Shown here piece by piece: positions 1-9,572 of a stretch of DNA of 9,572 nt (within the stretch, counting starts at the first letter, position 1; every line of letters begins with the position of its first letter). The position numbers and the translations under genes were made by a program. Location of the stretch: the NCBI GenBank assembly GCA_001797815.1, contig MGQK01000061.1, forward strand, positions 1,307-10,878, in the 5' to 3' direction. The notes below the pieces were generated by a model. The model saw nothing but the letters and a program-made list of their open reading frames with translations. It made no database searches and was not told the DNA's origin. The stretch is from Deltaproteobacteria bacterium RBG_13_61_14 (GTDB lineage: Bacteria; RBG-13-61-14).

Positions 1-35
1 GCTATTGGCACCGTTGAAAAATGCTGGCAAAACTA

Positions 36-64
36 TTGACATTGAAAAAAGCGTGTCCTATATT
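36..64 (+). promoter_or_regulatory. Strong sigma70-type promoter of the left operon
   Basis: A perfect -35 box TTGACA (36-41) is followed after exactly 17 bases by TATATT (59-64), five of six matches to the -10 consensus. Transcription would start near 70-72 and run into the gene at 257 and probably the whole plus-strand block to about 5347. The -10 region is followed by ATTATCGC, which resembles the ATATCGC repeats at the right-hand promoter near 8161-8187, so one repressor could control both; that link is inference. Confidence 0.7.
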
Positions 65-70
65 ATCGCT

Positions 71-256
71 GACCCGAATATAAAAATCGGGTGAGGTCGA
101 ACGCCCGAGCGTTCACCGACTTGCGCCGATGAGCGGCACAACGATGCCGCCCCGGAGGACAAACCCGGCTGAAATGCCGGGCATGGCACACGGCGGAACG
201 GTCCTGACTTTTCCGCACGAGGTTGCCATGGCAACCCAAAGCGGAGGTTGCTCCTC
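71..256 (+). promoter_or_regulatory. Long structured leader without a convincing gene
   Basis: About 185 bases separate the predicted transcription start from the first gene. The stretch holds three short hairpins: ACCCGA/TCGGGT (72-77/87-92), GAACGC/GCGTTC with a 4-base loop (99-104/109-114), and CCCGGC/GCCGGG with a 6-base loop (164-169/176-181). A 16-bp perfect palindrome follows at 221-236. A frame from ATG 129 stays open to 314 but lacks a ribosome binding site and runs into the next gene, so I do not call it. The leader may be a regulatory RNA region or a repressor binding region. No known riboswitch class is recognisable. Confidence 0.4.
221..236. repeat. 16-bp perfect palindrome, candidate operator
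   Basis: GGTTGCCATGGCAACC is identical to its reverse complement and lies 21 bases upstream of the ATG at 257. A further half site, GGTTGC, occurs at 246-251, overlapping the ribosome binding site. A dimeric HTH protein encoded by the element could bind here. In RNA it would form an 8-bp stem only if the centre were unpaired, so DNA binding is the simpler reading. Confidence 0.45.
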
Positions 257-679
257 ATGGCGCAAGACGAAAAAATCCCATTCCAGCCGGAGGTCGATAC
301 CCTCCGCCGCCTAATCGCCCGCAAGGGACTCAACGCCAACAAAGCCGCCGTGTTCATTCCTTGCTCCGGCATGGAGGTGCGCAATTGGCTGGCCGGACGG
401 CGAAAGCCGACACGGGGCTTTGCCATCCTACTCCGGGCGGCGATCAAAAAAATCAAGGCGCTTCCCGACAAGCCGAATTGGCAAGAGGTGGAGCGCACCC
501 TTTCACTCTACCGCACCATGAAGGCGCACTTGACGCTGGAGGAGAAAGAGGCGCTTTTGGAGTCGGGCGACATCACCGAATACGGCGAACGGCTCCGCAC
601 CCTGGCCCGGAAAATCCAAAAGCGGTGCGCTCAAGGCACGCCAGCCGAAGCGGCGGCCAACGAGTTGCTGAAGGAGTGA
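257..679 (+). CDS. HTH-like early regulatory protein, 140 aa
   Basis: The ATG at 257 is chosen because GCGGAGG (241-247) sits 9 bases upstream; the more upstream TTG at 248 directly abuts that site. Residues about 13-55 show an HTH-like arrangement (TLRRLIARKG, then a turn and VRNWLAGRRKPTRG), similar in layout to lambda-repressor/Cro-type folds in which the recognition helix is followed by a basic wing-like stretch. The C-terminal half is charged and helical with no family I can name. It is the first gene after the strong left promoter and ends five bases before the excisionase-like gene, which suggests an early regulator of the element. The exact role, activator or repressor, cannot be read from the sequence. 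It could instead be a DNA-binding accessory protein. Confidence 0.7.
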   Translation: MAQDEKIPFQPEVDTLRRLIARKGLNANKAAVFIPCSGMEVRNWLAGRRKPTRGFAILLRAAIKKIKALPDKPNWQEVERTLSLYRTMKAHLTLEEKEALLESGDITEYGERLRTLARKIQKRCAQGTPAEAAANELLKE

Positions 680-683
680 CGGC

Positions 684-860
684 GTGGAGCGCATGCTGAC
701 GCTGGCCCAAGTGGCCGAGGCGCTGGGCGTTTCGGTGCTCACGGTCCGACGCTGGGCGCTCAAGCGCCGCTTTGCTTCACACAGACTCGGCGGGCGGGTG
801 CGCATTGCGGAGCGGGACTTGGAGCGCTGGCTGGCCGAAAACCGACGGGAGGCGCTTTGA
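684..860 (+). CDS. Excisionase-type HTH protein, 58 aa
   Basis: This short gene starts at GTG 684, with AAGGAG (671-676) seven bases upstream; the in-frame ATG at 693 is too far from that site. The protein reads MERMLTLAQVAEALGVSVLT, then VRRWALKRR, a basic stretch GGRVRIAERDLERW and a short tail. This is the MerR-like winged HTH of the excisionase family (helix_turn_helix_17 type): L-T-x2-E/Q-V-A-x2-L-G-V-S at the start and R-I-x3-D-L-x2-W near the end. Such proteins bend DNA at attachment sites to favour excision, or act as regulators. The tyrosine recombinase at the far end of the window is a plausible partner. Length is normal for the family. Confidence 0.82.
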   Translation: MERMLTLAQVAEALGVSVLTVRRWALKRRFASHRLGGRVRIAERDLERWLAENRREAL

Positions 861-862
861 TC

Positions 863-1102
863 ATGCGTCGCCGTTTCAATTACACCGACTATCTCCGCTC
901 GCCGGAGTGGGCCGAGGTGCGCCGGAAAATTATCAAGCGGTACAAGGGCCGCTGTGCGATCTGTAATGGGCCGGGTGAGGCCGTGCACCATTGGCACTAT
1001 CGCACGCTTGGCCGGGAGCGGCTTTTCGATTGCGCACTTGTATGTACGTCCTGTCATTCGGCGTGGCACCAGCGGCTCGGTGCGGAGGTCCGGGTTGATT
1101 AG
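863..1102 (+). CDS. Small HNH endonuclease, 79 aa
   Basis: ATG 863 follows GGGAGG (847-852) at 10 bases; the upstream TTG at 857 is too close to it. The protein carries the Cys-rich HNH layout: C31-x2-C34, a central VHHWHY with H42-H43 as the catalytic-type histidines, and C61-x2-C64-H65-x3-H69. The Cys pairs bind structural zinc, and the beta-beta-alpha-metal core cuts DNA. Free-standing HNH proteins of this size often lie beside phage terminases, where some are needed for DNA cleavage during packaging. Here the terminase genes lie about 0.9 kb downstream on the same strand. The gene ends in TAG, so TAG is used as an ordinary stop in this element. A role as a solitary homing-type nuclease is the alternative. 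Confidence 0.87.
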   Translation: MRRRFNYTDYLRSPEWAEVRRKIIKRYKGRCAICNGPGEAVHHWHYRTLGRERLFDCALVCTSCHSAWHQRLGAEVRVD

Positions 1103-1109
1103 CAATCAC

Positions 1110-1184
1110 AGCGGGAGCGGCCATGGGCCTTTTGCTCGGGCGGCGGCGCCGAGGCGACGTGCGGCGCTCCGCCCCGCTCCCGCT
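1110..1184 (+). terminator. Nested inverted repeat followed by T run; terminator or structured RNA
   Basis: An 11-bp perfect inverted repeat (AGCGGGAGCGG at 1110-1120, its complement at 1174-1184) encloses further complementary segments: GGGCGG 1138-1143 with CCGCCC 1169-1174, and GCGCC 1146-1150 with GGCGC 1163-1167. The right arm runs straight into TTTTT and a second TTTT (1191-1194). This could terminate transcription after the HNH gene. The large interior also fits a structured RNA, or a packaging or cleavage site next to the HNH gene. I cannot decide between these. Confidence 0.45.
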
Positions 1185-1217
1185 TTTTCATTTTGGCGGC
1201 TCCGGGGGCGGCCCGTG

Positions 1218-1262
1218 TTGGCTCGCACGGGTGACAGCCCCCGCCCGCCGCTTACGAGCCAA
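1218..1262 (+). repeat. 8-bp inverted repeat just before the winged-helix gene
   Basis: TTGGCTCG (1218-1225) is the reverse complement of CGAGCCAA (1255-1262), which ends one base before the ATG at 1264. The next gene has no clear Shine-Dalgarno site, so this stem would fold the region immediately before its start codon. An operator for the winged-helix protein itself is an alternative. Confidence 0.35.
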
Positions 1263-1263
1263 A

Positions 1264-1599
1264 ATGAGCAAGAAACGTGACCGCCGCTCATATGTCGGAC
1301 TTCACAAGGAGTGCGTCAATTCCAAGGAGTACGCCGAATTGAGCTTGAGAGCAAAGGCCCTGTATCCGCTTTTCAAGGTCAAGTACAACCCGCTTAAAAA
1401 CGACGGCCTCGTCCGGCTCTCACAACGTGAGGTGAAAAGGAAAAAGTGGCCCGGCTTCGGACGCCATGAGGCAATCGCCGCCACAATTCAAGAGCTGATT
1501 AACAGGGGCTGGCTAGAGCTGGCCGAACCGGGCGGCCTCCTCTCCGGCGCCCCAGCATACCGCCTCACTTTCCGCTTTGACGAGTACGGCAAAAGGTGA
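1264..1599 (+). CDS. Replication-type winged-helix protein, 111 aa
   Basis: The protein runs from MSKKRDRRSYVGLHKE to FRFDEYGKR. Its middle (residues about 23-105: LSLRAKALYPLFKVKYNPLK, NDGLVRLSQREV, HEAIAATIQELINRGWLEL, then AYRLTF) matches the pattern of a winged-helix domain frequent in phage replication or regulatory proteins: 'LS..ARALY..LK.RYN..NNG...LS.REA', then a recognition helix, a G-(W/F)-(I/L) turn and a beta wing. It is shorter than true replication initiators and has no helicase-loader or primase domain. Although the frame is open back to 1123, the 1123-1263 translation is low-complexity and covers the inverted repeats, so ATG 1264 is preferred even without a clear ribosome binding site. 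It lies directly upstream of the palindrome array, its most likely binding target if it starts replication or controls late genes. Confidence 0.72.
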   Translation: MSKKRDRRSYVGLHKECVNSKEYAELSLRAKALYPLFKVKYNPLKNDGLVRLSQREVKRKKWPGFGRHEAIAATIQELINRGWLELAEPGGLLSGAPAYRLTFRFDEYGKR

Positions 1600-1610
1600 C
1601 CGCCATGGGA

Positions 1611-1628
1611 ATGGTATATATATATAAT
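1611..1628 (+). promoter_or_regulatory. AT-rich run with a -10-like box beside the palindrome array
   Basis: In GC-rich surroundings, 1611-1628 is a TA-repeat tract ending in a perfect TATAAT (1623-1628). No acceptable -35 box lies 16-18 bases upstream, so it would need an activator, or it may be an easily melted element of a replication origin. The first 18-bp palindrome starts three bases later, exactly where a repressor would block a start site. Confidence 0.4.
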
Positions 1629-1630
1629 CC

Positions 1631-1755
1631 GTGCGCACTTATGCGCACACCCCCCCGTGCGTACTTATGCGCACGCCTAACAGGCGAGAGCCGTTGCCAT
1701 GCCCTTTTTGAGAAGGCCCAAAGTGTGCGCACATATGCGCACGCAGGTGTGCGCA
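1631..1755. repeat. Array of 18-bp interrupted palindromes (iterons or operators)
   Basis: Three copies share the form GTGCGCA-N4-TGCGCAC: 1631-1648 (spacer CTTA, perfect arms), 1657-1674 (spacer CTTA, one arm base changed to T) and 1725-1742 (spacer CATA, perfect arms). A single half site GTGCGCA follows at 1749-1755. CACCCCCC at 1648-1655 is complementary to GGGGGGTG at 1758-1765, so the two ends of the array could also pair. Repeated dyads beside an AT-rich run and after a winged-helix gene are typical of a replication origin with iterons or of a multi-site operator. No coding frame through it is convincing. Confidence 0.72.
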
Positions 1756-1772
1756 ACGGGGGGTGCGGGCAT

Positions 1773-1991
1773 ATGGCTGAAGGCACGGCCAAACAAAGGC
1801 GGCCCGAGGCCCCGGCCATGGCCCCAGCCCGGCCCCGAGATCACAAGGACAAGCGGGGGCTACGTAGTCCAACGCTCCGGCGGCCCGCATATGGGGGGAA
1901 TGAGGCGGGAGCCGCTGGCGTGTGCCGCACGTGTGCCATGTTTTCGGGCGCCCGGCCCCATGCTGGAGGTGATTGGAGGATGAGAACATGA
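1773..1991 (+). CDS. Uncertain small ORF upstream of the terminase module
   Basis: This 72-aa frame starts at ATG 1773 after a weak G-rich site. Its stop overlaps the next start as ATGA (1988-1991), a junction used elsewhere in this element. The product is basic and Ala/Pro/Arg-rich and ends with one Cys pair (VCRTCAMFSGARPHAGGDWR). The frame from ATG 1699 to the TGA at 1981-1983 overlaps it and shows stronger G/C preference at third codon positions, so I cannot say which frame, if either, is translated. No family is recognised. The 1600-1987 stretch is best regarded as mainly regulatory. Confidence 0.25.
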   Translation: MAEGTAKQRRPEAPAMAPARPRDHKDKRGLRSPTLRRPAYGGNEAGAAGVCRTCAMFSGARPHAGGDWRMRT

Positions 1992-2485
1992 GCCGAAAAA
2001 GCCGGGGCATTTTGCCGCCAGGGCCGGACCGCCGCCATGGGAGCCACACGTACTTGACGACGGGCAAGCTCCCGGCGCACCGGGCATACTTGCGGGAGTT
2101 TCTGATCGAAGCACGGGCTGGCCTCGTGCGTGATCACGGGCCGACGGAGGAGGACTTGACCATGGCCCAGCGGCTCTTGATTGACCGGGTGATCAGCAAG
2201 CTGGGCGTCATGCGGTGCTTGGAGGAGTGGGCCAGGGACTACGGCGTGATACAGGGCGGCGACTTGGCGGGGCCGTTTAGGGAAAGCTATCTGGCGTACG
2301 CCAACAGCATGCGCTTTGACTTGACGGCGCTGGGCGTGAAGGTGCGGGCTGGGCGTGAGGCGTTGTCGGTTTTGGAGGTGCTGGCGGAGGACAAAAAGGC
2401 GGAGGAGAAGGCGGAGAAGGCTGACAAGGAGGTGGAGGGTGAGAAACAACACACCGATGAAGGCAATAGTGGCGTTTTGCCTTGA
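1988..2485 (+). CDS. Terminase small-subunit-like protein, 165 aa
   Basis: ATG 1988 follows GGAGGA (1975-1980) at seven bases. The N-terminus is basic (MSRKSRGILPPGPDRRHGSH). A helical core follows (residues about 30-130) with FRESYLAYANSMRFDLTALG at 97-116, a pattern of tyrosine, asparagine and leucine seen in small proteins just upstream of phage terminase large subunits, including P27-type small subunits. The tail from about 133 is a charged, Lys/Glu-rich helix, probably flexible or coiled. A small subunit would recognise packaging-site DNA and hand it to the large subunit encoded 250 bases downstream. The call rests on position, size and the pattern, not on a sure family match; another helical phage DNA-binding protein is possible. 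Confidence 0.6.
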   Translation: MSRKSRGILPPGPDRRHGSHTYLTTGKLPAHRAYLREFLIEARAGLVRDHGPTEEDLTMAQRLLIDRVISKLGVMRCLEEWARDYGVIQGGDLAGPFRESYLAYANSMRFDLTALGVKVRAGREALSVLEVLAEDKKAEEKAEKADKEVEGEKQHTDEGNSGVLP

Positions 2486-2603
2486 GTGCGTCGGCGGTAG
2501 CAAAAAAGAGGTTGAGGAGTGTGAGGCTAGGGCGTGCCCGTTGTGGCGGTGGAGGTCACGGACCGCTCGTAGAATCGAACGGCAAGCTGATGTCATTAGT
2601 TAG
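2439..2603 (+). CDS. Small conserved Cys-rich phage protein, 54 aa
   Basis: The best start is GTG 2439, with AAGGAGGT (2426-2433) five bases upstream; the in-frame ATG at 2457 has no site at a proper distance. The core reads MKAIVAFCLECVGGSKKEVE and then ECEARACPLWRWR. This matches a family of very small phage and prophage proteins with the signature CLxCxGGSxKEVxxCxxxxCPLxxxR. Four cysteines (CxxC plus C-x5-C) probably form a small zinc site. Family function is unknown, but members occur in phage gene blocks, often near packaging genes. It overlaps the previous gene by 47 bases in another frame. The usual CPLYPYR is changed to CPLWRWR here, and the C-terminus is extended. Confidence 0.82.
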   Translation: MRNNTPMKAIVAFCLECVGGSKKEVEECEARACPLWRWRSRTARRIERQADVIS

Positions 2604-2654
2604 AGGCTCTTGTGGGAGGCGTTTTCTTTATGGGGCGGCAGGGGTGGTAGCGGG

Positions 2655-2735
2655 GTGCTCGTGAAAATCGAAATTAGGGCCGTTTCCGTGCGGTTTATTG
2701 CTTGTCGGTTTTTTCTGAAGGTGACAATGCCGTGA
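2655..2735 (+). CDS. Possible 26-aa peptide coupled to the terminase
   Basis: GTG 2655, about 10 bases after AGGGG, opens a 26-codon frame reading MLVKIEIRAVSVRFIACRFF then LKVTMP. Its TGA (2733-2735) overlaps the terminase GTG start (2732-2734), a typical coupled junction. The alternating hydrophobic pattern VKIEIRAVSVRFIACRFFLKV suggests a single beta-hairpin-like peptide or a membrane-touching strand. It fills the only gap between the Cys-rich protein and the terminase. I do not recognise a family with certainty. It is short enough to be chance, but the junction and the ordered composition argue for translation. Confidence 0.42.
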   Translation: MLVKIEIRAVSVRFIACRFFLKVTMP

Positions 2736-4141
2736 ACATATTGGAGGCGATGGCCGACGCCCGTTTTTTCAAGCCGTTGTTCAAGGACGCCGCAACGTGG
2801 GAGGCGTGGCGTGTTTTCCTTGCGGCGCTTTTCGAGCCGGGGGAGGCGGGGTTTCGGTTGTACAAGGAGGCGACGGGGCGGGGCAAGTGGCCGGGGGGGG
2901 CGGCCCAGCGGGCTTTTGTGATCGCCGGGCGGCGCTCGGGCAAGTCGTTTATCTCGGCGCTTGTGGCCACGTACTTGGCGGCGTTTCGGGAGTGGAGGCC
3001 GCACTTGTCGCCGGGTGAGCGGGCCATGGTGCTGGTGATTGCGGTGGACAAGGAGCAAGCGTCCATTGTGCGGCACTATGTGGGCGGGTTTCTTCGGGCG
3101 GTCCCGGCGCTCCGGGCCATGCTGGAGAAGGAAACCGCCGAGGGGCTGGCGCTCAAAAACCGGGTGACAATTGCGGTCAAGGCGTGCAATTTCCGGGCGC
3201 TCCGGGGCTTCACCGTGGCCGCCGCCATTTTGGAGGAGTTGGCGTTTTGGCGGAGTGAGGAGTCGGCCAACCCGGACCGGAAGGTGATGAGGGCGCTGGA
3301 GCCAGCGCTGGCCTCGGTGCCCGGCTCGCTCTTGCTCGGGATAAGTACACCGTATTCACGGAGCGGCGCCTTGTGGGATGAGTTTCGGGCGGGCTTCGGG
3401 GTTGAGGACGGGCCGCTCGTGTGGCGGGCGCCGACGGCCACAATGAACCCGACGCTTGCCGCCTCCACAATCGAGCGGGCCTTGCGGGTTGACCCGGAGG
3501 CCGCACGGGCGGAGTGGCTGGCCGAGTGGCGGGAGGACTTGGCGGGCTTTGTGTCGTCCGAGGTTGTGGAGGCGGTCACTTATCCGGGCCGCTTTGAGTT
3601 GCCCAAGCTCCAGGGCGCCGCATACGTTGCGGCGATAGACCCGAGCGGCGGGCGGAATGACAGTTTCACTTTGGCCGTGGCGCACCGTGATCAAAAAACC
3701 GAGCGGGCCGTGCTTGACGTTTTGCGGGAGGTCAAGCCGCCGTTCAAGCCGCAGGGCGTTGTTGAGGAGTTTTCCCGGCTCCTCAAGGACTACGGCTTGC
3801 GGGAGGTTGTGAGTGACCGCTTCGCCGGGGAGTGGGTTGCGGAGGCTTTTGACAAGTGCGAGGTCAAAGTGGTGCCCGCCGAGCTTACGGCCTCGGAGGC
3901 GTACTTGGAGCTTTTGCCCTTGCTTATGAACGGCGGGATTGAGCTTTTAGATCACAAGCGGCTCAAGGCACAGTTGAGCGGGCTTGAGCGCCGGGTGCGG
4001 AGCGGGGGCAAGGATATTGTCACCCACTACCAGGGCGGGCACGACGATTGCGCCAACGCCGTGGCGCTGGCGCTCCTCCAAGCCAAGCGGAGCGCCGAGA
4101 GCGGCTTTTATATCGGCTGGAGCCGCCGCAATGTTTGGTGA
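2732..4141 (+). CDS. terL: Phage terminase large subunit, 469 aa
   Basis: This is the ATP-driven DNA packaging motor and nuclease. GTG 2732 is chosen because AAGGTGA (2718-2724) lies seven bases upstream and the preceding small frame overlaps it. Domains: an N-terminal ATPase with Walker A AGRRSGKS (65-72), Walker B ending in acidic EE (ILEELAFW, 166-173), and the coupling motif LLGISTPYSRSG (201-212). A C-terminal RNase-H-like nuclease follows with three acidic positions, AIDPSGG (D303), VVSDRF (D362) and GGHDDCANA (D438/D439). All key residues are present, and length is normal for the family, so the protein looks functional. It follows the small-subunit-like gene as expected, but no portal gene follows; instead a 66-aa gene overlaps its end. 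Confidence 0.95.
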   Translation: MNILEAMADARFFKPLFKDAATWEAWRVFLAALFEPGEAGFRLYKEATGRGKWPGGAAQRAFVIAGRRSGKSFISALVATYLAAFREWRPHLSPGERAMVLVIAVDKEQASIVRHYVGGFLRAVPALRAMLEKETAEGLALKNRVTIAVKACNFRALRGFTVAAAILEELAFWRSEESANPDRKVMRALEPALASVPGSLLLGISTPYSRSGALWDEFRAGFGVEDGPLVWRAPTATMNPTLAASTIERALRVDPEAARAEWLAEWREDLAGFVSSEVVEAVTYPGRFELPKLQGAAYVAAIDPSGGRNDSFTLAVAHRDQKTERAVLDVLREVKPPFKPQGVVEEFSRLLKDYGLREVVSDRFAGEWVAEAFDKCEVKVVPAELTASEAYLELLPLLMNGGIELLDHKRLKAQLSGLERRVRSGGKDIVTHYQGGHDDCANAVALALLQAKRSAESGFYIGWSRRNVW

Positions 4142-4331
4142 CTTTGTGGGCCGCCTTTTCCGCCGTGTCGTGGCCACGGGCCGCAAGCACCGTGACGCCA
4201 TGGCCGAGGACGAGCAATTGCGGCCCGGAATGTACGAGGAGGACGAGGATTTTATCCTGGCCGAGCGGGCGCTCCGCAAGCACGACGAGCTTGTGGAGGC
4301 CATTGTGAACGATGAGCGGAGGAAAAAATGA
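4131..4331 (+). CDS. Hypothetical charged protein after terminase, 66 aa
   Basis: ATG 4131 overlaps the last codons of the terminase gene, with GGAG (4119-4122) eight bases upstream, so translation is probably coupled. The protein begins MFGDFVGRLFRRVVATGRKH, an amphipathic, basic N-terminus. It continues with an acidic helical part (EDEQLRPGMYEEDEDFILAE) and ends DERRKK. There are no cysteines and no membrane segment. I recognise no family. Where most phages encode a portal or a head-associated protein, this element has this small gene, which makes it part of the case for a reduced or satellite-type element. Confidence 0.6.
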   Translation: MFGDFVGRLFRRVVATGRKHRDAMAEDEQLRPGMYEEDEDFILAERALRKHDELVEAIVNDERRKK

Positions 4332-4384
4332 GGCCGCCCGGAGTTTCCGTCATGCGCTCCTCCGGCTCCGAGTGCGGCCTCATT
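4327..4384 (+). promoter_or_regulatory. Strong hairpin over a start codon, possible translation switch
   Basis: AATGAGGCCGC (4327-4337) is the perfect complement of 4374-4384. Inside it, CCGGAG (4338-4343) pairs with CTCCGG (4360-4365), so the arm is almost continuous. The start codon ATG 4328-4330 lies in the stem. A second copy of the right arm, GCGGCCTCA at 4433-4441, could pair with 4329-4337 instead, giving two exclusive folds. Six A residues (4323-4328) precede the stem, so on the minus strand it would look like a terminator with a T run. Function is inference. Confidence 0.45.
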
Positions 4385-4579
4385 CGGATACAAGCGGGGG
4401 CGGCTCGGGCTGAAAGCCCAGCCCGAAAAAAGGCGGCCTCACCAGACGGGCCGCTGTGCCGCTCCCGCTGTCCAATACGTGAGGAAAACAAGCGCCTCCG
4501 CCAAGTGGTGCGGAGCCTCCGTGGCACCGTGCACAAGCTGGCCGAGGACTACGCCAAATTGAAAACGCAAGGAGAGTGA
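4328..4579 (+). CDS. Hypothetical coiled-coil protein, 83 aa
   Basis: ATG 4328 overlaps the preceding stop as ATGA, and GGAGG (4318-4322) lies five bases upstream. The first 45 residues (MRPPGVSVMRSSGSECGLIR and on) are low in order and rich in Ala, Ser, Pro and Arg. The C-terminal part (IREENKRLRQVVRSLRGTVH, then KLAEDYAKLK) has clear heptad spacing of L, V and I and would form a coiled coil, possibly a dimer. C60 and C64 (PLCRSRCPI) precede it. The last codons carry the ribosome binding site of the next gene. The N-terminal codons fold into the hairpin described separately, so a later start such as ATG 4352 is possible. No family is recognised. Confidence 0.5.
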   Translation: MRPPGVSVMRSSGSECGLIRIQAGAARAESPARKKAASPDGPLCRSRCPIREENKRLRQVVRSLRGTVHKLAEDYAKLKTQGE

Positions 4580-4580
4580 C

Positions 4581-5075
4581 ATGACGAAACAAAAGACTAT
4601 GGGACTTTTGCAGACCGTTGACTTGCCGGACCTGGGCGAGCGGGAGCCGCCGGAGCCGTTGCTCAAGCCGGAGGAGTTTCTGTCAACGCACGAGCTGGGC
4701 AAGGACGGGCGGCGCACGGTGACGGACCGGGACTATTGCTTGCGCTTTGCCAACGCCGAGGAGTTGGCCGAGCTTCGAAAGCGGGTTGAGAAACGGCGGG
4801 CCGCACTCCCGGCGTGGGCCTTTGTCATTTGCCACAAGTGCGGCTGGCGGGGCAAGGTCCGGGGCGCCCTCCAGCCCAGCACGAGTTGCCCGGTGTGCAA
4901 CCGTGGCAATTACAAAAAGGGCGCCAAGCTGGAGCTTATGAGCAAGGGCGAGCTTTCCGACTTTGAGAAGGCCGAGCGGGAGCGGGCCGTGCGGGCCGGA
5001 AAGGCGCAAAAGGAAACGGCCAAGGCCAACGCCGCCGCCTTCCGCACCAAAGTGGCCCGAGGGGATTTTCAATGA
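4581..5075 (+). CDS. Hypothetical zinc-ribbon protein, 164 aa
   Basis: ATG 4581 has AAGGAGAG shortly upstream, inside the end of the previous gene. The N-terminal third is acidic and Pro-rich (LPDLGEREPPEPLLKPEEFL). The middle is helical, followed by a zinc ribbon made of ICHKCGWRGK (C84, C87) and SCPVCNRGN (C103, C106). The C-terminal tail is a highly charged Ala/Lys/Glu/Arg helix (FEKAERERAVRAGKAQKETA and on). Zinc ribbons of this kind bind nucleic acid or proteins; I cannot assign a precise role. Tight spacing to its neighbours indicates one operon with the terminase. It may be a packaging or transcription accessory protein, but that is a guess. Confidence 0.68.
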   Translation: MTKQKTMGLLQTVDLPDLGEREPPEPLLKPEEFLSTHELGKDGRRTVTDRDYCLRFANAEELAELRKRVEKRRAALPAWAFVICHKCGWRGKVRGALQPSTSCPVCNRGNYKKGAKLELMSKGELSDFEKAERERAVRAGKAQKETAKANAAAFRTKVARGDFQ

Positions 5076-5347
5076 GCGCCGACAAATACACGGACCCGAA
5101 ACTAAATCCGTTCATTCCGGCGGAGCCGGGCGATCACACGGACCCGGCGGAGGACCGGGCGCCGTTCACCGTGCCCGCCGCCGTCGTGGCCCGCCGCATT
5201 GCCGAAAGGCACCCGGATAAAAACGAGTTGGCGCTGGCCGGGCATGCGCTCGTGAAAATGGCCGACGGCTCATACAAGGTCAACGGCACGCCCATGGCCG
5301 AGTTATCGCCCAGCATGCTCCTTGAGTTGCTGAACGCCCTCCGTTGA
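5072..5347 (+). CDS. Hypothetical small acidic protein, 91 aa
   Basis: ATG 5072 overlaps the preceding stop as ATGA, with GAGGGGA upstream at a good distance. The first half is Pro- and Asp-rich and probably unstructured (MSADKYTDPKLNPFIPAEPG). The second half looks like a compact domain: AAVVARRIAERHP, then LALAGHALVKMADGSYKVNG and SPSMLLELLNALR. There are no cysteines, signal peptide or membrane segment. I recognise no family. It closes the plus-strand backbone operon; base composition becomes more A+T-rich directly after it. Confidence 0.65.
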   Translation: MSADKYTDPKLNPFIPAEPGDHTDPAEDRAPFTVPAAVVARRIAERHPDKNELALAGHALVKMADGSYKVNGTPMAELSPSMLLELLNALR

Positions 5348-5402
5348 GGCTCGTAGCGCTCGTCTGTGATGGCGGGGCACAATGGCAGGGGTTAAGTATT
5401 GC

Positions 5403-5431
5403 TTGACAGGCGTATTGGCTTTCTTTAGGAT
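5403..5431 (+). promoter_or_regulatory. Own promoter of the lipoprotein cargo gene
   Basis: TTGACA (5403-5408) and TAGGAT (5426-5431) are separated by exactly 17 bases, placing the start near 5438, about 36 bases before the ATG at 5474. The promoter is bracketed by a 7-bp inverted repeat, GGCAGGG (5384-5390) and CCCTGCC (5452-5458). An independent promoter in front of an A+T-richer gene inside a phage operon is the hallmark of a moron, a cargo gene expressed outside the phage cycle. Confidence 0.6.
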
Positions 5432-5473
5432 TTGGTCAAGGGGCCAGCAGACCCTGCCTTTTGGAGCGGAATA

Positions 5474-5923
5474 ATGAGAACATCGTGGACCGATTCCAGT
5501 CCTGCTTTTCATTATGGGAAGCGAGTTCACATCCTTGTGGCGGCGCTCTGCGCCGTTGGGATTGTGCTGGCCTTATCATGTGGCTCTGAGGGTCCAACTT
5601 CTCCAAAATATGTCCCATTGAAAATAGCAATCACGGGTACAGTCACAGACTCAGAAACGCATGCAGGAATTGATGATGTGCTTATACAGGCAAATGAGTT
5701 CAGTAGTCCCATTTCTAATGAACCAATTTTGATAGCAGAAACAAGAACTGATAGTGACGGTCGATATGAACTCAAGTTCGAGGTCAACAAGTCAACCTGC
5801 AGGGAAGGGAAATATCGCCTTTGGTTTCTTAAGGATTCTTATGAAACAGGTCCAGGCTCCGGGGACATTAATTGTACAAGCGATGTGCAAGTAATTAATA
5901 TTCAACTTATCCCCCAGCAATGA
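5474..5923 (+). CDS. Lipoprotein with carboxypeptidase-regulatory-like domain, 149 aa
   Basis: ATG 5474 has GGAG (5463-5466) seven bases upstream; the frame is open further back but lacks such a site. Residues 17-35 form a basic-then-hydrophobic signal (KRVHILVAALCAVGIVLALS) ending at C36, an acceptable lipobox for lipid attachment and membrane anchoring. The mature part carries ITGTVTDSETHAGIDDVLIQ and TRTDSDGRYELKF, the G-x-V-x-D ... G-x2-V-x-I/V ... T-D-x-D-G-x-Y-x-L signature of the CarboxypepD_reg beta-sandwich fold, with two further cysteines (109, 134) that may form a disulfide. Such domains bind proteins or sugars at the cell surface. Codon use is more A/T-rich than the phage backbone, suggesting transfer. 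A role in superinfection exclusion or surface change is possible but unproven. Confidence 0.8.
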   Translation: MRTSWTDSSPAFHYGKRVHILVAALCAVGIVLALSCGSEGPTSPKYVPLKIAITGTVTDSETHAGIDDVLIQANEFSSPISNEPILIAETRTDSDGRYELKFEVNKSTCREGKYRLWFLKDSYETGPGSGDINCTSDVQVINIQLIPQQ

Positions 5924-5980
5924 GGCGGGAGGGGCCGGGCACAATGCGCCGAGCGTTTTTAAAGTCACAGGGGGATTCAT

Positions 5981-6811
5981 ATGTGGCCCTTCACAAAGAA
6001 ACCAAAGCAACCTGAACCGAAAATCGAAGAAGAAAAACCCCTACTGGAGTTTGAAGTCAAGGTGACAGTTGACCCAGAGACAGTGGCGCCCCCTATGGAG
6101 CCCAAAGAACCGGACCAGCCAGAGATGAAACCCGAACCACTGAAAAAAACGCAGTGGAAGTGCCCGACCTGCAAGCAAGCATTCCCTGGGAGAGCGACAA
6201 GGAGCAGGTTCAAGTGTCCTCATTGCCGAAACTGGGTTTACTTCTTAGGTGACAACCTGGTGACGATGGAAGACCACGGACGATTAGCCGAAAAGTATTA
6301 CCAGGACCGATACCGAGGAAGATTGCGGGAGACAATGAAGGAAGAACTTGCGAAGATGGGCTTGACCGAAGAAAAGCTCAAGCGAAGAGAAAATGAGCTG
6401 TTGGCTAAGATGGGTGTTCAGCCGCAGAAGATTTTCGTCATCCTGAGCGTATTCAACGAAACCATTTTGAAAGTTAAAAACCTGAACGAGAAGTGCGAGC
6501 GATACTTAAGCCTTGCCGACATCCTCCGCAAAGGTGGAGAAGACACTTTCCACATTCTTCAAATCGCCGTAAAAGCGAAGCTCGCTGCTCTGAGAAAAGA
6601 CGGGTTCATCAACGTATCCATCATTGCGAGCGGGATGTGTGAGCGGTGCAAAAAAGTGGACGGTAAAGTATTGTCAATTGAGCAAGCGCTGAAAACCATG
6701 CCGATTCCGATAAGGGAGTGCCAAAACCGGGGGGAGGACGAGAATTACGGCTACTGCATCTGCGAGTATTACCCCGAACATGACGACGAGTACTGGAAGA
6801 ACCAGCCTTAA
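5981..6811 (+). CDS. Protein with N-terminal zinc ribbon and C-terminal Cys cluster, 276 aa
   Basis: ATG 5981 follows AGGGGG at six bases. Residues 1-55 are a Lys/Glu/Pro-rich linker (MWPFTKKPKQPEPKIEEEKP). Residues 61-82 form a zinc ribbon, CPTC (61, 64) and CPHC (79, 82), followed by the aromatic NWVYFLG. Residues about 100-145 are a charged helix, 150-205 a helical core, and 210-262 a second Cys cluster: SGMCERCKKVDGKVLSIEQA, then REC (247) and YGYCICEYYP (259, 261). The motif C-x2-C-x3-D/N-G-K-x-(12-20)-C-x(10-12)-C-x-C recalls the zinc-binding end of phage Mu gpF-like minor head proteins and related unnamed bacterial proteins. It is not close enough to assign. It lacks a clear own promoter and may share transcription with the lipoprotein gene. 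Confidence 0.7.
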   Translation: MWPFTKKPKQPEPKIEEEKPLLEFEVKVTVDPETVAPPMEPKEPDQPEMKPEPLKKTQWKCPTCKQAFPGRATRSRFKCPHCRNWVYFLGDNLVTMEDHGRLAEKYYQDRYRGRLRETMKEELAKMGLTEEKLKRRENELLAKMGVQPQKIFVILSVFNETILKVKNLNEKCERYLSLADILRKGGEDTFHILQIAVKAKLAALRKDGFINVSIIASGMCERCKKVDGKVLSIEQALKTMPIPIRECQNRGEDENYGYCICEYYPEHDDEYWKNQP

Positions 6812-6818
6812 CAGAGGT

Positions 6819-6834
6819 ACCGCCATGAGGCGGT
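6819..6834. terminator. Short hairpin between convergent genes
   Basis: ACCGCC (6819-6824) and GGCGGT (6829-6834) form a 6-bp GC-rich stem with an ATGA loop in the 69-base space between two convergent genes. No T run follows on either strand, so any termination would be weak or Rho-assisted. Confidence 0.3.
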
Positions 6835-6880
6835 TGGAGGCCAGTGGTGTGTAGGAGTCAGAGGTTTGAGCTAACGCACG

Positions 6881-7654
6881 CTAGAGTGGATTCCCTTGCC
6901 TCCATTTTTCATTAAAAGCGGAAATGAGCTTTTTGAGTAAATCTGGAACCAAATTCTTATCCAGACTGATTATGAATGATTCCTTGCCTCCAATATCCTT
7001 TAATCCATGACCAAGTATCAATAGTAATTGGTTGGTCAAAATATATCGGTCATGCAATTCATTTGGGCGTGCAACTTGGCGAAACGAAACTTGAGGTCGT
7101 TCCCTTTTAAAATCATTGATTGCCCCTTGAAGTCGTCTGCCCGTTTCATTTGTTTTGCAGGTAATAAACCTTATTTCACAAGCCCTGGGGACCAGGTCTA
7201 GTGAATCCAAAGTCCTGATACCATAATAAGGATCACATATCCTTACTTCGCCTCTAAGGCTAGAGAGAATGTCACTCAATTTCATTCTGGCCGTCCTTGG
7301 CTCATTGCTTTTTATGTAAACGACGGACATCAGTTTTTTGCCAAGCAGAGCATCAATTTCCCTTTGGCCCTTTATCATAAGCTTAAATGATGTTTCGCCA
7401 TCAGCATTTAGTTTTCTTGATACTCTATTATAAGCCCTGGCAAGTGCGTTCTTAATAGATCGTTTTGATACCGCAACTCCCGCACACTCTAAACACGCCG
7501 CAATATGTTCCGAAGTCAACTCTTCTATTCCGCAAGCTTCTTTTGCGAGCTTTAAAGCAGCGAAGGATAAAAGGAGCGGGGATTCGATATCAGCTAACTG
7601 CTCTTTTTGGTGTTGTTCCAGAGAGCTGAACGTGTTCAACAGACTCTTTTTCAT
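6881..7654 (-). CDS. Winged-helix plus phospholipase-D-like protein, 257 aa
   Basis: Second gene of a two-gene minus-strand unit, starting 15 bases after its partner's stop with only a weak ribosome binding site, so coupling is likely. Residues 26-105 are helical with a winged-helix-like order (LLLSFAALKLAKEACGIEEL, ECAGVAVSKRSIKNALARAY). Residues 125-257 resemble a phospholipase-D-like fold of the MIT_C type: GEVRICDPYYGIRTLDSLDL, EIRFITCKTNE, then NELHDRYILTNQ (H201, R203) and ILGHGLKDIGGKESFI (213-228). The classical H-x-K is replaced by H-D-R and only one copy is present, so nuclease activity would need dimerisation or may be lost. Function is unknown. The place between cargo and integrase suggests a defence or toxin-like role, by inference. 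Codons are much more A/T-rich than in the backbone. Confidence 0.75.
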   Translation of the reverse strand: MKKSLLNTFSSLEQHQKEQLADIESPLLLSFAALKLAKEACGIEELTSEHIAACLECAGVAVSKRSIKNALARAYNRVSRKLNADGETSFKLMIKGQREIDALLGKKLMSVVYIKSNEPRTARMKLSDILSSLRGEVRICDPYYGIRTLDSLDLVPRACEIRFITCKTNETGRRLQGAINDFKRERPQVSFRQVARPNELHDRYILTNQLLLILGHGLKDIGGKESFIISLDKNLVPDLLKKLISAFNEKWRQGNPL

Positions 7655-7669
7655 ACTGATATCATCCGG

Positions 7670-8041
7670 TCAATAATTTATATAAACCCAACCTTTTTTC
7701 TCTTTTATTCTGCGCAAGGTCTTTTTCCTGGTCAAACGAAGTAATGCTGGAGAAAGACTCTCTTGGGCATAAATATGGCCTTTTTCCTCTAATTTTTTTT
7801 GTATATCGCCCATGACTCTTTTGCCCTTGAAGTACCCTTCTTTTGCCAGTTCTAAAATTAATTGTTGAGGACCTCCACGTCCAGGAGTAGCTTTTTGGGT
7901 TGTTACCCTCGTAAGCCCTTTCTTTTTTTCAGATTCACCAGTTGGCTGCGAAAACATTTTGAGGATTTTTGTCACTTCCTGGGGACCGCCTTCGATAAGC
8001 ACAGTTGTCCCATTGGGTAGTTTAAAGCTTGCTTTGGCCAT
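7670..8041 (-). CDS. Small winged-helix partner protein, 123 aa
   Basis: The start is the ATG at 8041 reading leftward, with AAGGAGG (8053-8047) five bases before it; the GTG two codons upstream overlaps that site. Residues 1-30 (ASFKLPNGTTVLIEGGPQEV and TKILKMF) look like a small beta-strand pair and helix. Residues 31-55 are a flexible Lys/Thr-rich linker. Residues 57-123 (GGPQQLILELAKEGYFKGKR, VMGDIQKKLEEKGHIYAQES, LSPALLRLTRKKTLRRIKEK, GWVYINY) form a winged-helix domain with a recognition-like LSPALLRLTRKKTLRRI and a final wing WVYI. It probably binds DNA or the partner protein encoded next to it, and could repress the unit through the palindrome in its own promoter. I know no name for the family. 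Base use is A/T-rich like its partner. Confidence 0.75.
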   Translation of the reverse strand: MAKASFKLPNGTTVLIEGGPQEVTKILKMFSQPTGESEKKKGLTRVTTQKATPGRGGPQQLILELAKEGYFKGKRVMGDIQKKLEEKGHIYAQESLSPALLRLTRKKTLRRIKEKKGWVYINY

Positions 8042-8061
8042 CGGCACCTCCTTTTGTCCTT

Positions 8062-8091
8062 AGAATATTACCGAAGGACTTATTAAGTCAA
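8062..8091 (-). promoter_or_regulatory. Promoter of the minus-strand pair with embedded palindrome
   Basis: Reading leftward, TTGACT (8091-8086) and TATTCT (8067-8062) are 18 bases apart; TAATAT (8070-8065) with 15-base spacing is an alternative. The 13-base near-palindrome GACTTA-T-TAAGTC (8077-8089) overlaps the -35 box and spacer, where a bound repressor would block the promoter. The start would lie near 8055, just before the ribosome binding site. Confidence 0.5.
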
Positions 8092-8143
8092 GCCAGTTTG
8101 AGGCGCTCAGTATCCTATCAATTTCGTTTGAAAGTTACTGCAA

Positions 8144-8185
8144 CAAGTACTTGACAAACAATATCGCATGATATAATGTTATATC
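8144..8185. repeat. Overlapping palindromes at the HTH-integrase promoter, candidate operators
   Basis: The palindrome GATATAA-TG-TTATATC (8170-8185) covers the -10 box and the start site. ATATC-GCAT-GATAT (8161-8174) overlaps it, and ATATCGC occurs twice (8161-8167, 8181-8187). The 10-bp palindrome CAAGTACTTG (8144-8153) overlaps the -35 box. The small HTH protein encoded immediately downstream is the natural candidate binder, implying autoregulation. Confidence 0.5.
8151..8177 (+). promoter_or_regulatory. Promoter of the HTH-integrase unit
   Basis: A perfect TTGACA (8151-8156) and a perfect TATAAT (8172-8177) are present, but only 15 bases apart, two fewer than the best spacing. Such a promoter is often weak or activator-dependent. 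The start would lie near 8184, leaving about five bases before the ATG at 8189, so the transcript may be almost leaderless. Confidence 0.6.
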
Positions 8186-8188
8186 GCC

Positions 8189-8377
8189 ATGACAAAGCAG
8201 GGAACGGTCAAACAGCTGAAGGCTTACAAGGAAAAAACGGGCTTCTCCAACGCCCGGCTGGCCGCTGAAATCGGCGTGCACAAGCTCACGCTGACGCTGT
8301 GGCTGGAGGGAAAATTCAAGCCTTCCAATATGGCCGAGCGGCTGGTGGAAAATTATCTGGCAGGGAGGACAAAATGA
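8189..8377 (+). CDS. Small HTH (Xre/Cro-like) DNA-binding protein, 62 aa
   Basis: The protein is little more than a helix-turn-helix: residues 9-45 read LKAYKEKTGFSNARLAAEIG and VHKLTLTLWLEGKFKPS, with the A-R-L-A-A-E-I-G-V turn and a following recognition helix typical of the Xre/Cro class. It probably binds as a dimer to the palindromes in its own promoter and acts as the element's repressor or an integrase regulator. The ATG at 8189 has no Shine-Dalgarno site and lies a few bases after the predicted transcript start, so leaderless initiation is likely. Its end overlaps the integrase start as ATGA (8374-8377), so the two are co-expressed. Base use fits the GC-rich backbone, not the cargo. 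Confidence 0.75.
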   Translation: MTKQGTVKQLKAYKEKTGFSNARLAAEIGVHKLTLTLWLEGKFKPSNMAERLVENYLAGRTK

Positions 8378-8808
8378 CAGGACGGGTTTATTCTCGGAAG
8401 ATCAAGGGCGGCACCACGTGGGCAATTGACTACACGGAGCCGGGGGGCCGGAGGGTGCGGCAAATAATCGGCCCGAGCAAAACGCTGGCCAACGAGGTGC
8501 TGACGGCCCGGCTGGGCGACGTGGTGCGGGGCACCAACAAGCTGGCCCCGAAAAAGGCGCCGAGGGTGCGGGAGTTTCGGGAGGAGTATCTTGCCACGAT
8601 CAAGGCGAGTGGCCGCTTTTGGCGCCGCCACGCCGTGTCGCTCAAGCGGCTGGCGGTGTTTTTCGGTGACATAGCGCTTGATAAAATCCGGCTCTCCGAC
8701 TTGGTGCGGTACAGAAACGAGCGCCAGCGCAAGGTTGGCCCGGCCACGGTCAACCGGGAGTTGGCGTGTCTCCGGCACATGTTCAACACGGCCAAGCGCA
8801 TGGGCTAG
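8374..8808 (+). CDS. int: Tyrosine recombinase, N-terminal part ending at an in-frame amber
   Basis: ATG 8374 follows GGGAGGAC closely and overlaps the HTH gene's stop as ATGA. The 144 residues hold the arm-type DNA-binding region (about 1-60: MTGRVYSRKIKGGTTWAIDY and on) and most of the core-binding SAM-like helical domain (about 65-144: FREEYLATIKASGRFWRRHA to RELACLRHMFNTAKRMG). Translation stops at TAG 8806-8808, exactly in frame with the catalytic part that begins at 8812. In related integrases this point is read straight through (an A-x-R-x-G, then a residue or two, then ENP pattern), so the stop interrupts one gene. TGG to TAG by one base is the simplest origin. Confidence 0.85.
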   Translation: MTGRVYSRKIKGGTTWAIDYTEPGGRRVRQIIGPSKTLANEVLTARLGDVVRGTNKLAPKKAPRVREFREEYLATIKASGRFWRRHAVSLKRLAVFFGDIALDKIRLSDLVRYRNERQRKVGPATVNRELACLRHMFNTAKRMG

Positions 8809-8811
8809 GTT

Positions 8812-9498
8812 ATGGGCGAAAACCCGGTGACAAAGGACGCCTTTGTGAAAGAGTCACCCAAGATCAAGCGGGACATGACGGCGGAGGAGATCGCCCACTT
8901 GCTCCGCTCGTTTGACGAGAAAGCCAAGCACGCCCGGCTCGTGGCCGTGGTGGTGCTCAACACGGGATTGCGGCAAACCGAGGCCACGGGCCTCCGCTGG
9001 GACAACGTGGACTTTGAGCACGGGCGCATAATCATTGACAAGACCAAGGACGGCACGGCGCATTGTGTCGCCATGACGCCAACGCTGGCCGCCGAGCTTC
9101 GGGCGTGGCCCAAGGTGAGCAAGTACGTTTTCCCGACGCTCACCCGCAAGGACAAGGGACCGCAAAGGGAGCGGCCCATGGGTTCGATCAAGCGGGCGTT
9201 TGCAACCGCCGTTGACAAGGCCGCCAAGGAATATCCGGCGCTCGCTGGCATGACGCTCCATCACTTGCGGCACCACGCCGGACGTGTTCTAATACGGCAC
9301 GGGGCGAGCGTCGTTGTGGCCCAGGCGCTTCTCGGGCACAAGGACGTGCGCACTACGATGAGGTACTTGCATGTGGCCAGCGAAGGCTATTTGAAACAAG
9401 CCGCCGAGGCCCTGGAGGACGAGAACGCCCGGCAAAATGGCACACCTACGGCACACGAGCCTTTCCGTGGCACCAAGGAAAGCAAGGCAACGAATTGA
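8812..9498 (+). CDS. int: Tyrosine recombinase, C-terminal catalytic part, 228 aa
   Basis: This frame continues the integrase after the amber codon and begins with ATG only three bases beyond it, so re-initiation could yield a separate catalytic polypeptide. It starts with the ENPV linker and carries the complete tyrosine-recombinase catalytic set: R54 (NTGLRQTEATGL), a lysine in the beta-turn (IIIDKTKDG, K77 or K79), H150-x2-R153 (LHHLRHH), H176 (LLGHKDV) and the nucleophile Y185 (RYLHVA). The enzyme cuts and rejoins DNA at attachment sites; alone, this part lacks most of the core-binding domain. The tail after about residue 200 is hydrophilic. No catalytic residue is lost, so inactivation, if any, is recent. 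The tRNA gene follows after 13 bases. Confidence 0.88.
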   Translation: MGENPVTKDAFVKESPKIKRDMTAEEIAHLLRSFDEKAKHARLVAVVVLNTGLRQTEATGLRWDNVDFEHGRIIIDKTKDGTAHCVAMTPTLAAELRAWPKVSKYVFPTLTRKDKGPQRERPMGSIKRAFATAVDKAAKEYPALAGMTLHHLRHHAGRVLIRHGASVVVAQALLGHKDVRTTMRYLHVASEGYLKQAAEALEDENARQNGTPTAHEPFRGTKESKATN

Positions 9499-9511
9499 AT
9501 ATAAATGAGTT

Positions 9512-9572
9512 GCGCCCGTAGCTCAGTGGATAGAGCGGTGGACTTCGAATCCAAAGGTCGGGGGTTCAAATC
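9512..9572 (+). tRNA. tRNA-Arg(TCG), 5' part, truncated by window end
   Basis: The acceptor arm GCGCCCG (9512-9518) is followed by TA, the D stem GCTC/GAGC (9521-9524/9533-9536) with loop AGTGGATA, and the anticodon loop CTTCGAA with anticodon TCG (9545-9547), reading arginine CGA and related CGN codons. The variable region and the start of the T arm (GGGGGTTCAAATC) follow. The anticodon stem has four good pairs and a G-A mismatch at the base. About 15 bases of the 3' end lie outside the window. tRNA genes are common integration targets for tyrosine recombinases. Confidence 0.9.

Follow-up and report, generated by a model that had tools for sequence, protein, structure and literature searches.

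Can an integrated element that encodes a whole DNA-packaging motor, and no virion for that motor to fill, be a phage satellite? The question is raised by 9,572 nucleotides from the metagenome-assembled genome (MAG; 4.74 Mb, 132 contigs, 95% complete) of Deltaproteobacteria bacterium RBG_13_61_14 (GCA_001797815.1), positions 1307–10878 of contig MGQK01000061.1 (C61); 'the window' below is this whole stretch. An earlier interpretation of the letters (the sequence-only reading) had noticed excisionase-type, HNH, winged-helix, small terminase-like, intact large terminase and repressor-like helix-turn-helix (HTH) genes, all of them upheld here by Pfam and PHROG matches, fold comparison and BLAST, and had proposed a compact new type of satellite. 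Our analysis supports a satellite with an intact motor, but as one member of a broad family and not as a lone type. We think it probable that the window holds an integrative phage satellite, inserted in tRNA-Arg(TCG), that has its own terminase and borrows procapsid and portal from a helper.

A complete terminase without virion genes

The frame of the large terminase subunit (TerL), whose true start is likely the GTG at 2732, retains all of its catalytic residues: the Walker A motif GRRSGKS, the Walker B motif ILEE and the nuclease aspartates D313, D372 and D448/D449. Across 112 aligned relatives the catalytic glutamate never varies, nor do the first two of the nuclease aspartates. The product of the gene before it, the putative small subunit (TerS), is 48% identical to a protein of locus L022 and 43% identical to one of L107 (L numbers are our handles for loci), both encoded at the same position before TerL, and its protein cluster comprises 58 loci, in 47 of which the gene lies directly upstream of TerL; L107 and L064, both loci of portal-bearing phages, are among them. 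The best match of its AlphaFold model (pLDDT 83) is the HK97 small terminase, with Z values of 8.5 and 8.3 (82 residues, root-mean-square deviation 2.7). Unrelated rows reach at most Z 7.5 and the named viral matches are mostly TerS, and a Z value such as 8.5 is by itself moderate for helical proteins. The means by which phage satellites direct packaging are thus present, as a TerS and a TerL with conserved active sites.

None of the window genes matched a portal, capsid, protease or tail family in Pfam and PHROG scans, in agreement with the earlier statement that no such gene lies between the terminase and the tRNA. Apart from TerL and the integrase, no open reading frame (ORF) is of portal size, the longest plausible genes encoding 276 and 257 amino acids (aa). 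In the window, as in satellites, no full set of genes for a virion is therefore present, and the portal and capsid genes that would mark a tailed prophage within attachment-site (att) borders are missing from it. Structural genes just left of position 1 had been named in advance as the finding that would make this an ordinary or degraded prophage; the 1306-bp stretch of contig to the left of the window contains none.

The element is bordered by the start of a tRNA-Arg gene

The right end of the window is also the end of the contig, and leftward the contig continues for 1306 bp, of which the 37 bases nearest the window are N (an assembly gap). A tRNA-Arg gene begins at the right end, 13 bp past the integrase stop; 61 nt of it are present, counted from its 5′ end, and its 3′ portion is lost to the contig end. 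It resembles tRNA-Arg genes elsewhere in the MAG. At C61 1259–1269, right before the N gap, the sequence GCGCCCGTAGC repeats exactly the 11 nt with which this tRNA starts; GCGCCCGTAGCTCAG is present exactly once in the MAG. The natural reading of this arrangement is that the assembler collapsed the att repeat, which would leave attL in the gap and attR at the right end. Because the start of the right-hand tRNA recurs just before the gap, a left border at position ∼1 is supported, as the sequence-only reading had supposed, and the element would measure ∼9.6 kb and lie almost wholly inside the window. Relatives L038 and L112 share this topology, with exact 42-bp repeats of the tRNA-Arg 5′ half at the far end and a tRNA that continues past the integrase.

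Like a mobile element with defined ends and its own integration genes, the window has a tRNA start on both sides, an integrase and an excisionase-like gene. The integrase beside the tRNA, as previously described, is confirmed by its catalytic-domain match and is collinear with the integrases of L022, L102, L103, L023 and L038 (22–33% identity), but its frame is broken by a single in-frame TAG (8806–8808) between the N-terminal and catalytic domains, which may be a mutation, an assembly error or a site of readthrough. A C-terminal fragment of a tyrosine integrase is also found at C61:806–1249, ending ∼10 bp ahead of the tRNA start, and is probably left over from an earlier element at this site.

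Relatives of the terminase are portal-less elements in about ten phyla

With the single TerL sequence as query, nothing was found in viral or genome contigs. A profile built after matches on plasmids recovered 123 loci from the species genomes of GTDB, of which 80 were kept, and 34 from IMG/VR, 38–53% identical and spread over about ten phyla; two-peptide searches give a lower bound that is biased to close relatives. The host lineage is isolated: among 59 related genomes that were searched, only two belong to its order. Named phages have TerL proteins only 21–30% identical to that of the window, and none among 50,697 isolated phages is closer than about 30%, so that tools trained on phage isolates may miss a sizeable share of satellites. 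No description of this element family was found in the literature searched, most subscription journals lying outside its reach.

Exact direct repeats of 26–58 bp, mostly tRNA ends, delimit 29 of the loci as elements of 8.4–18.3 kb (median 12.6 kb). Their usual gene order is integrase, HTH gene, primase or replication gene, sometimes a resolvase, TerS, TerL and a variable short module. L102 is an 8385-bp element with a 46-bp att repeat at 51/8436, L023 is an 8430-bp circle (141-bp terminal repeat) with integrase, TerS and TerL, and the same plan recurs in further complete relatives including L038, L112 and L047. When elements with weaker repeats and one circular element are included, 35 relatives are delimited, and six-frame hidden Markov model searches found in none of them any of the three portal families known from this TerL group. 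Nor did Pfam list a portal among the 96 relatives' genes scanned, nearly all downstream of TerL. These absence counts come from specific models, in six-frame searches and Pfam scans, and do not prove absence. Lacking a portal, the relatives should be unable to build a functional procapsid.

Other virion genes are scarce in these elements and occur singly. Among the 35, a major head protein is present in one (L077), an S78 protease in one (L022) and a DUF2213 protease in three; a helical protein, c2, is present in about half and a tape measure protein in several. A major capsid gene occurs in only two of the 29 repeat-bounded elements, L077 and L102, where a lone major head protein follows TerL without a portal (L102:4077–5264, L077:11533–12666), and capsid-stage genes (major capsid, protease) are found one at a time in L102, L077, L022, L080 and L043. 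The earlier picture of a satellite devoid of structural genes consequently holds for the window but not for its close relatives L102, with its major head protein, and L022, with a prohead protease and no portal; the idea that all relatives are free of capsid genes was rejected, since these two, L077 and others carry one.

On the TerL tree the nearest neighbors of the window are L022 (from Aminicenantes) and L102, with L103 and the phage pair L107/L064 further off. The portal-bearing loci are phages (L107, L064, L118 and most of the L120–L134 group), and the presence or absence of a portal changes at least six times on the tree, which indicates an exchange of terminases between phages and these elements. 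When portal-less elements are compared in pairs, the dN/dS of TerL is 0.05–0.24. This purifying selection points to a TerL that still works and speaks against the portal-less elements being, in general, decaying prophages.

Several further features of the relatives were observed. A tape measure-like protein follows TerL in L028, L032, L040, L041, L043, L094, L097, L046 and others, as if fixing the tail length of a borrowed virion; these relatives, many of them alphaproteobacterial, yielded neither a portal nor a capsid gene. In 22 loci the all-helical c2 lies directly after TerL (L105:7640–8452 and 21 others); comparison with PHROGs, isolated phages and viral structure models gave no match to it, and its own model (mean pLDDT 86) has no convincing structural match. 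Two genomes each hold two different family members, Mesorhizobium tianshanense (L047 and L060) and Phyllobacterium endophyticum (L054 and L065). Genes 47% identical to the window TerL are found on plasmids of Komagataeibacter and Methylobacterium, and the family is present on three plasmids annotated as non-mobilizable: Komagataeibacter nataicola pKNA06 (L018), which holds a duplicated unit, Methylobacterium pM44601 (L019) and a 9.7-kb Roseomonas plasmid (L020), whose TerL is truncated.

Taken as a family, these elements might form a large and mostly undescribed class of satellites across about ten phyla, with a complete terminase and no portal, whose own motor would be set on a foreign portal; some lineages would also contribute a single capsid protein, protease or tape measure module and so respecify the borrowed virion. 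The window would be the most stripped-down form of the class. We hold the chances for and against such a class to be about even. If true, it raises the question of how specific the contact between motor and portal is, which can be tested directly, and the satellite idea as such is testable because some hosts of the family can be cultured (Sinorhizobium, Bradyrhizobium, Methylobacterium, Mesorhizobium and Marinobacter), with intact relatives in Sinorhizobium fredii USDA 205 (L040) and Bradyrhizobium japonicum SZCCT0148 (L048), among others.

Proposed packaging route and a candidate helper

If TerS and TerL are maintained without a portal, their simplest use is to package the DNA of the element into the procapsids of another phage. 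In such a model infection by, or induction of, a helper phage would lead the element to excise and replicate, possibly from the iterons at 1632–1742. Its own TerS would then mark the satellite DNA, and its own TerL would dock on the portal of the helper procapsid, cut this DNA and pump it in, after which helper heads and tails would carry the satellite.

A possible source of particles is present in the same MAG. The terminase search found a fragment of a Mu-like prophage on contig C1 (L139), with a Portal_Mu gene (E 3.6e-89), a gpT major head subunit (E 1.4e-45), a gpI protease, a TerL of its own and tail genes. Searches of the MAG for HK97-type capsids and portals returned nothing, and those models miss the Mu-like prophage.

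Several points weigh against a satellite of this kind. Both the use of a helper capsid and the packaging of the element are deduced from genes. The assignment of TerS draws on gene position and a moderate fold match, with no sequence family, and is to that extent tentative. As some relatives of this TerL belong to portal-bearing phages, TerL alone is no marker of a satellite. The Mu-like prophage is only a candidate helper and its compatibility with the element is putative: its TerL differs from that of the element, and the expectation of a helper with a similar packaging site in the same host found a candidate, but no shared DNA or packaging-site match stood out between the two. For attL the evidence in this copy is an 11-nt match followed by an N gap, and on the right the contig stops before any host flank. 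Finally, the copy in the window may no longer move because its integrase holds a nonsense codon.

Alternative explanations

The window could instead be a degraded prophage in which integrase and terminase were kept by chance as the structural genes were lost, an explanation that we regard as unlikely. It would account for the in-frame TAG, the integrase remnant in the left flank would suit a site that collects decaying elements, and portal-bearing true phages do fall within the same TerL tree. Chance retention is harder to reconcile with the recurrence, across dozens of unrelated hosts, of one reduced plan bounded by exact att repeats, with TerL frames that stay open under purifying selection in portal-less elements, or with the persistence of every TerL catalytic residue in the window itself. 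The copy in the window, taken alone, could nevertheless be a decayed satellite.

A terminase co-opted away from packaging, for instance into DNA processing, defence or maintenance of a plasmid-like kind, appears very unlikely. While this idea gains some footing from plasmids in Komagataeibacter, Methylobacterium and Roseomonas, which are small, are annotated as non-mobilizable and carry a related TerL, both the ATPase and the nuclease site are kept and TerS is retained beside TerL. In relatives, moreover, a major head protein, a head maturation protease and a tape measure protein adjoin TerL, which points to virion assembly.

It is also highly improbable that the left border is an artefact, with the gap joining unrelated DNA and the element continuing leftward into structural genes. 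Such a join might be suspected from the 37 N directly left of position 1 in a MAG as fragmented as this one, but an exact 11-nt match to the tRNA start is expected by arithmetic only ∼2 times in 10 million per fixed position (4^-11) and is the sign that an att repeat collapsed in assembly would leave; the nominal gap length suits the remainder of a ∼40-nt repeat, and the layout agrees with that of the complete relatives. That this is a complete small phage with portal and capsid too divergent for recognition is scarcely credible, for although no family match was obtained for the 276-aa cargo protein or for several small proteins, no plausible gene besides TerL and integrase exceeds 276 aa, portals near TerL in relatives measure ∼490–720 aa, and related elements of 8.4 kb are equally short of room.

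Other genes and repeats of the element

The features of the window that we read as a probable satellite are collected in Table 1. Its core genes have 60–67% GC, and the block at 5432–8047, with 41–48% GC, lies below them and is read as cargo. The winged-helix-type protein has no Pfam or PHROG match and belongs to a cluster common to L022, L023 and L117. The three copies of TGCGCACWTATGCGCAC upstream of terS are far above chance (a mean of 0.04 in shuffled sequence) and are candidate replication iterons, operators or packaging-start (TerS) sites. Neither viral contigs nor the rest of the MAG yielded a homologue of the 276-aa cysteine-rich protein.

Table 1. Features of the window, with positions counted from its first base
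Feature	Position	Strand	Basis
Left end of element	1..247	.	attL (5′ part of tRNA-Arg) just left of position 1, in and before the 37-N gap (C61:1259–1306)
HTH-containing protein, probable regulator	257..679	+	HTH_31 E 1e-3, below cut-off; weakly similar to L022 14107–14298
Excisionase-like HTH_17 protein	684..860	+	Pfam HTH_17 E 1.1e-14; PHROG 66 excisionase E 7.8e-13
HNH endonuclease-like protein	857..1102	+	PHROG HNH families, E down to 7.5e-9
Winged-helix-type protein, possible replication or regulatory role	1264..1599	+	BLAST E 6e-11 to L102 6427–6768
Three near-palindromic TGCGCACWTATGCGCAC copies, intergenic	1632..1742	+	0–1 mismatch
Putative small terminase subunit TerS	1988..2485	+	Placement before TerL; relatives' proteins; fold match
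Large terminase subunit TerL	2702..4141	+	PHROG terminase large subunit E 8.2e-25; ATPase and nuclease complete
Small ORF overlapping TerL stop	4131..4331	+	ORF call; longer frame without family match
Zinc-ribbon-like protein	4581..5075	+	ORF call; no significant family match
Small protein	5072..5347	+	ORF call; no family match
Cargo: lipoprotein-like protein, carboxypeptidase-regulatory-like domain	5432..5923	+	PF13620 E 2e-4, below cut-off; low-GC block
Cargo: 276-aa cysteine-rich protein	5981..6811	+	No significant family match
Cargo: PLD-like protein, candidate anti-phage defence	6881..7654	-	PADLOC PDC-S05 E 5.8e-11
Cargo: small protein beside candidate defence gene	7670..8047	-	ORF call; penicillinase-repressor-like match, weak only
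Repressor-like HTH protein	8189..8377	+	HTH_3 E 0.002, below cut-off; PHROG E 5e-6
Tyrosine integrase	8374..9498	+	PF00589 E 8.1e-29 (catalytic part); Int_N E 3.8e-7 (N part)
attR, 5′ part of tRNA-Arg (anticodon TCG)	9512..9572	+	Rfam RF00005 47.6 bits, model positions 1–59 of 71

Comparison with known systems

Known satellites either redirect the terminase of a helper or bring a whole capsid. The virus Rctr16k (KX853514, from a methane-oxidising enrichment; 16.7 kb) resembles the window in having an integrase and no annotated portal or capsid, and also encodes a replication gene, a TerL that is ∼25–30% related and a tail-like protein. It differs in that its TerL is distant and its genome partial and larger, and the record does not name it a satellite. 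The plasmids pKNA06 and pM44601 share with the window a 47% identical TerL, a small gene before it and, in the stretches read, no annotated portal or capsid, but they are extrachromosomal and encode ParA, and pKNA06 adds a resolvase, VapE and a head maturation protease.

Tycheposons and virion-encapsidated integrative mobile elements (VEIMEs), which have been proposed as marine satellite families, are integrative elements at tRNA genes, and some tycheposons carry terminase and capsid genes. Compared by description, the family found here stands apart in its hosts, which are mostly Proteobacteria, Aminicenantes, Nitrospira and others and not marine picocyanobacteria, and it may overlap part of the VEIME or tycheposon groups. 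In the general Pfam and PHROG scans no match to the P4-like Sid, Psu or Delta was listed; no dedicated model was run. Phage-inducible chromosomal minimalist islands (PICMIs), VEIMEs and tycheposons are among the kinds of phage satellite in PMC11389934.

A close comparison is with the phage-inducible chromosomal islands (PICIs), including the Staphylococcus aureus pathogenicity islands (SaPIs). Like the window, these are small integrative elements with an integrase, an excisionase-like gene and a packaging gene, have no virion genes and need a helper, whose terminase they redirect by TerS, Rpp or a cos site (PMC10690885). Some have capsid-redirecting genes, such as Ccm of SaPIbov5, a capsid-protein homologue (PMC8569155), to which the lone major head proteins of L102 and L077 are comparable. 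However, PICIs rely on the TerL of the helper, whereas the window has a whole terminase, TerL included, of its own. Capsid-forming PICIs (cfPICIs), which bring portal, capsid, protease and terminase (PMC10690885), share TerS, TerL and HNH genes with the window and, as integrative elements, are broadly comparable with it in size; they differ in having a portal, which is found neither in the window nor in the 35 delimited relatives, and in having a major capsid protein and a head maturation protease, both absent from the window. The element thus fits the definition of neither PICIs nor cfPICIs and stands between the two.

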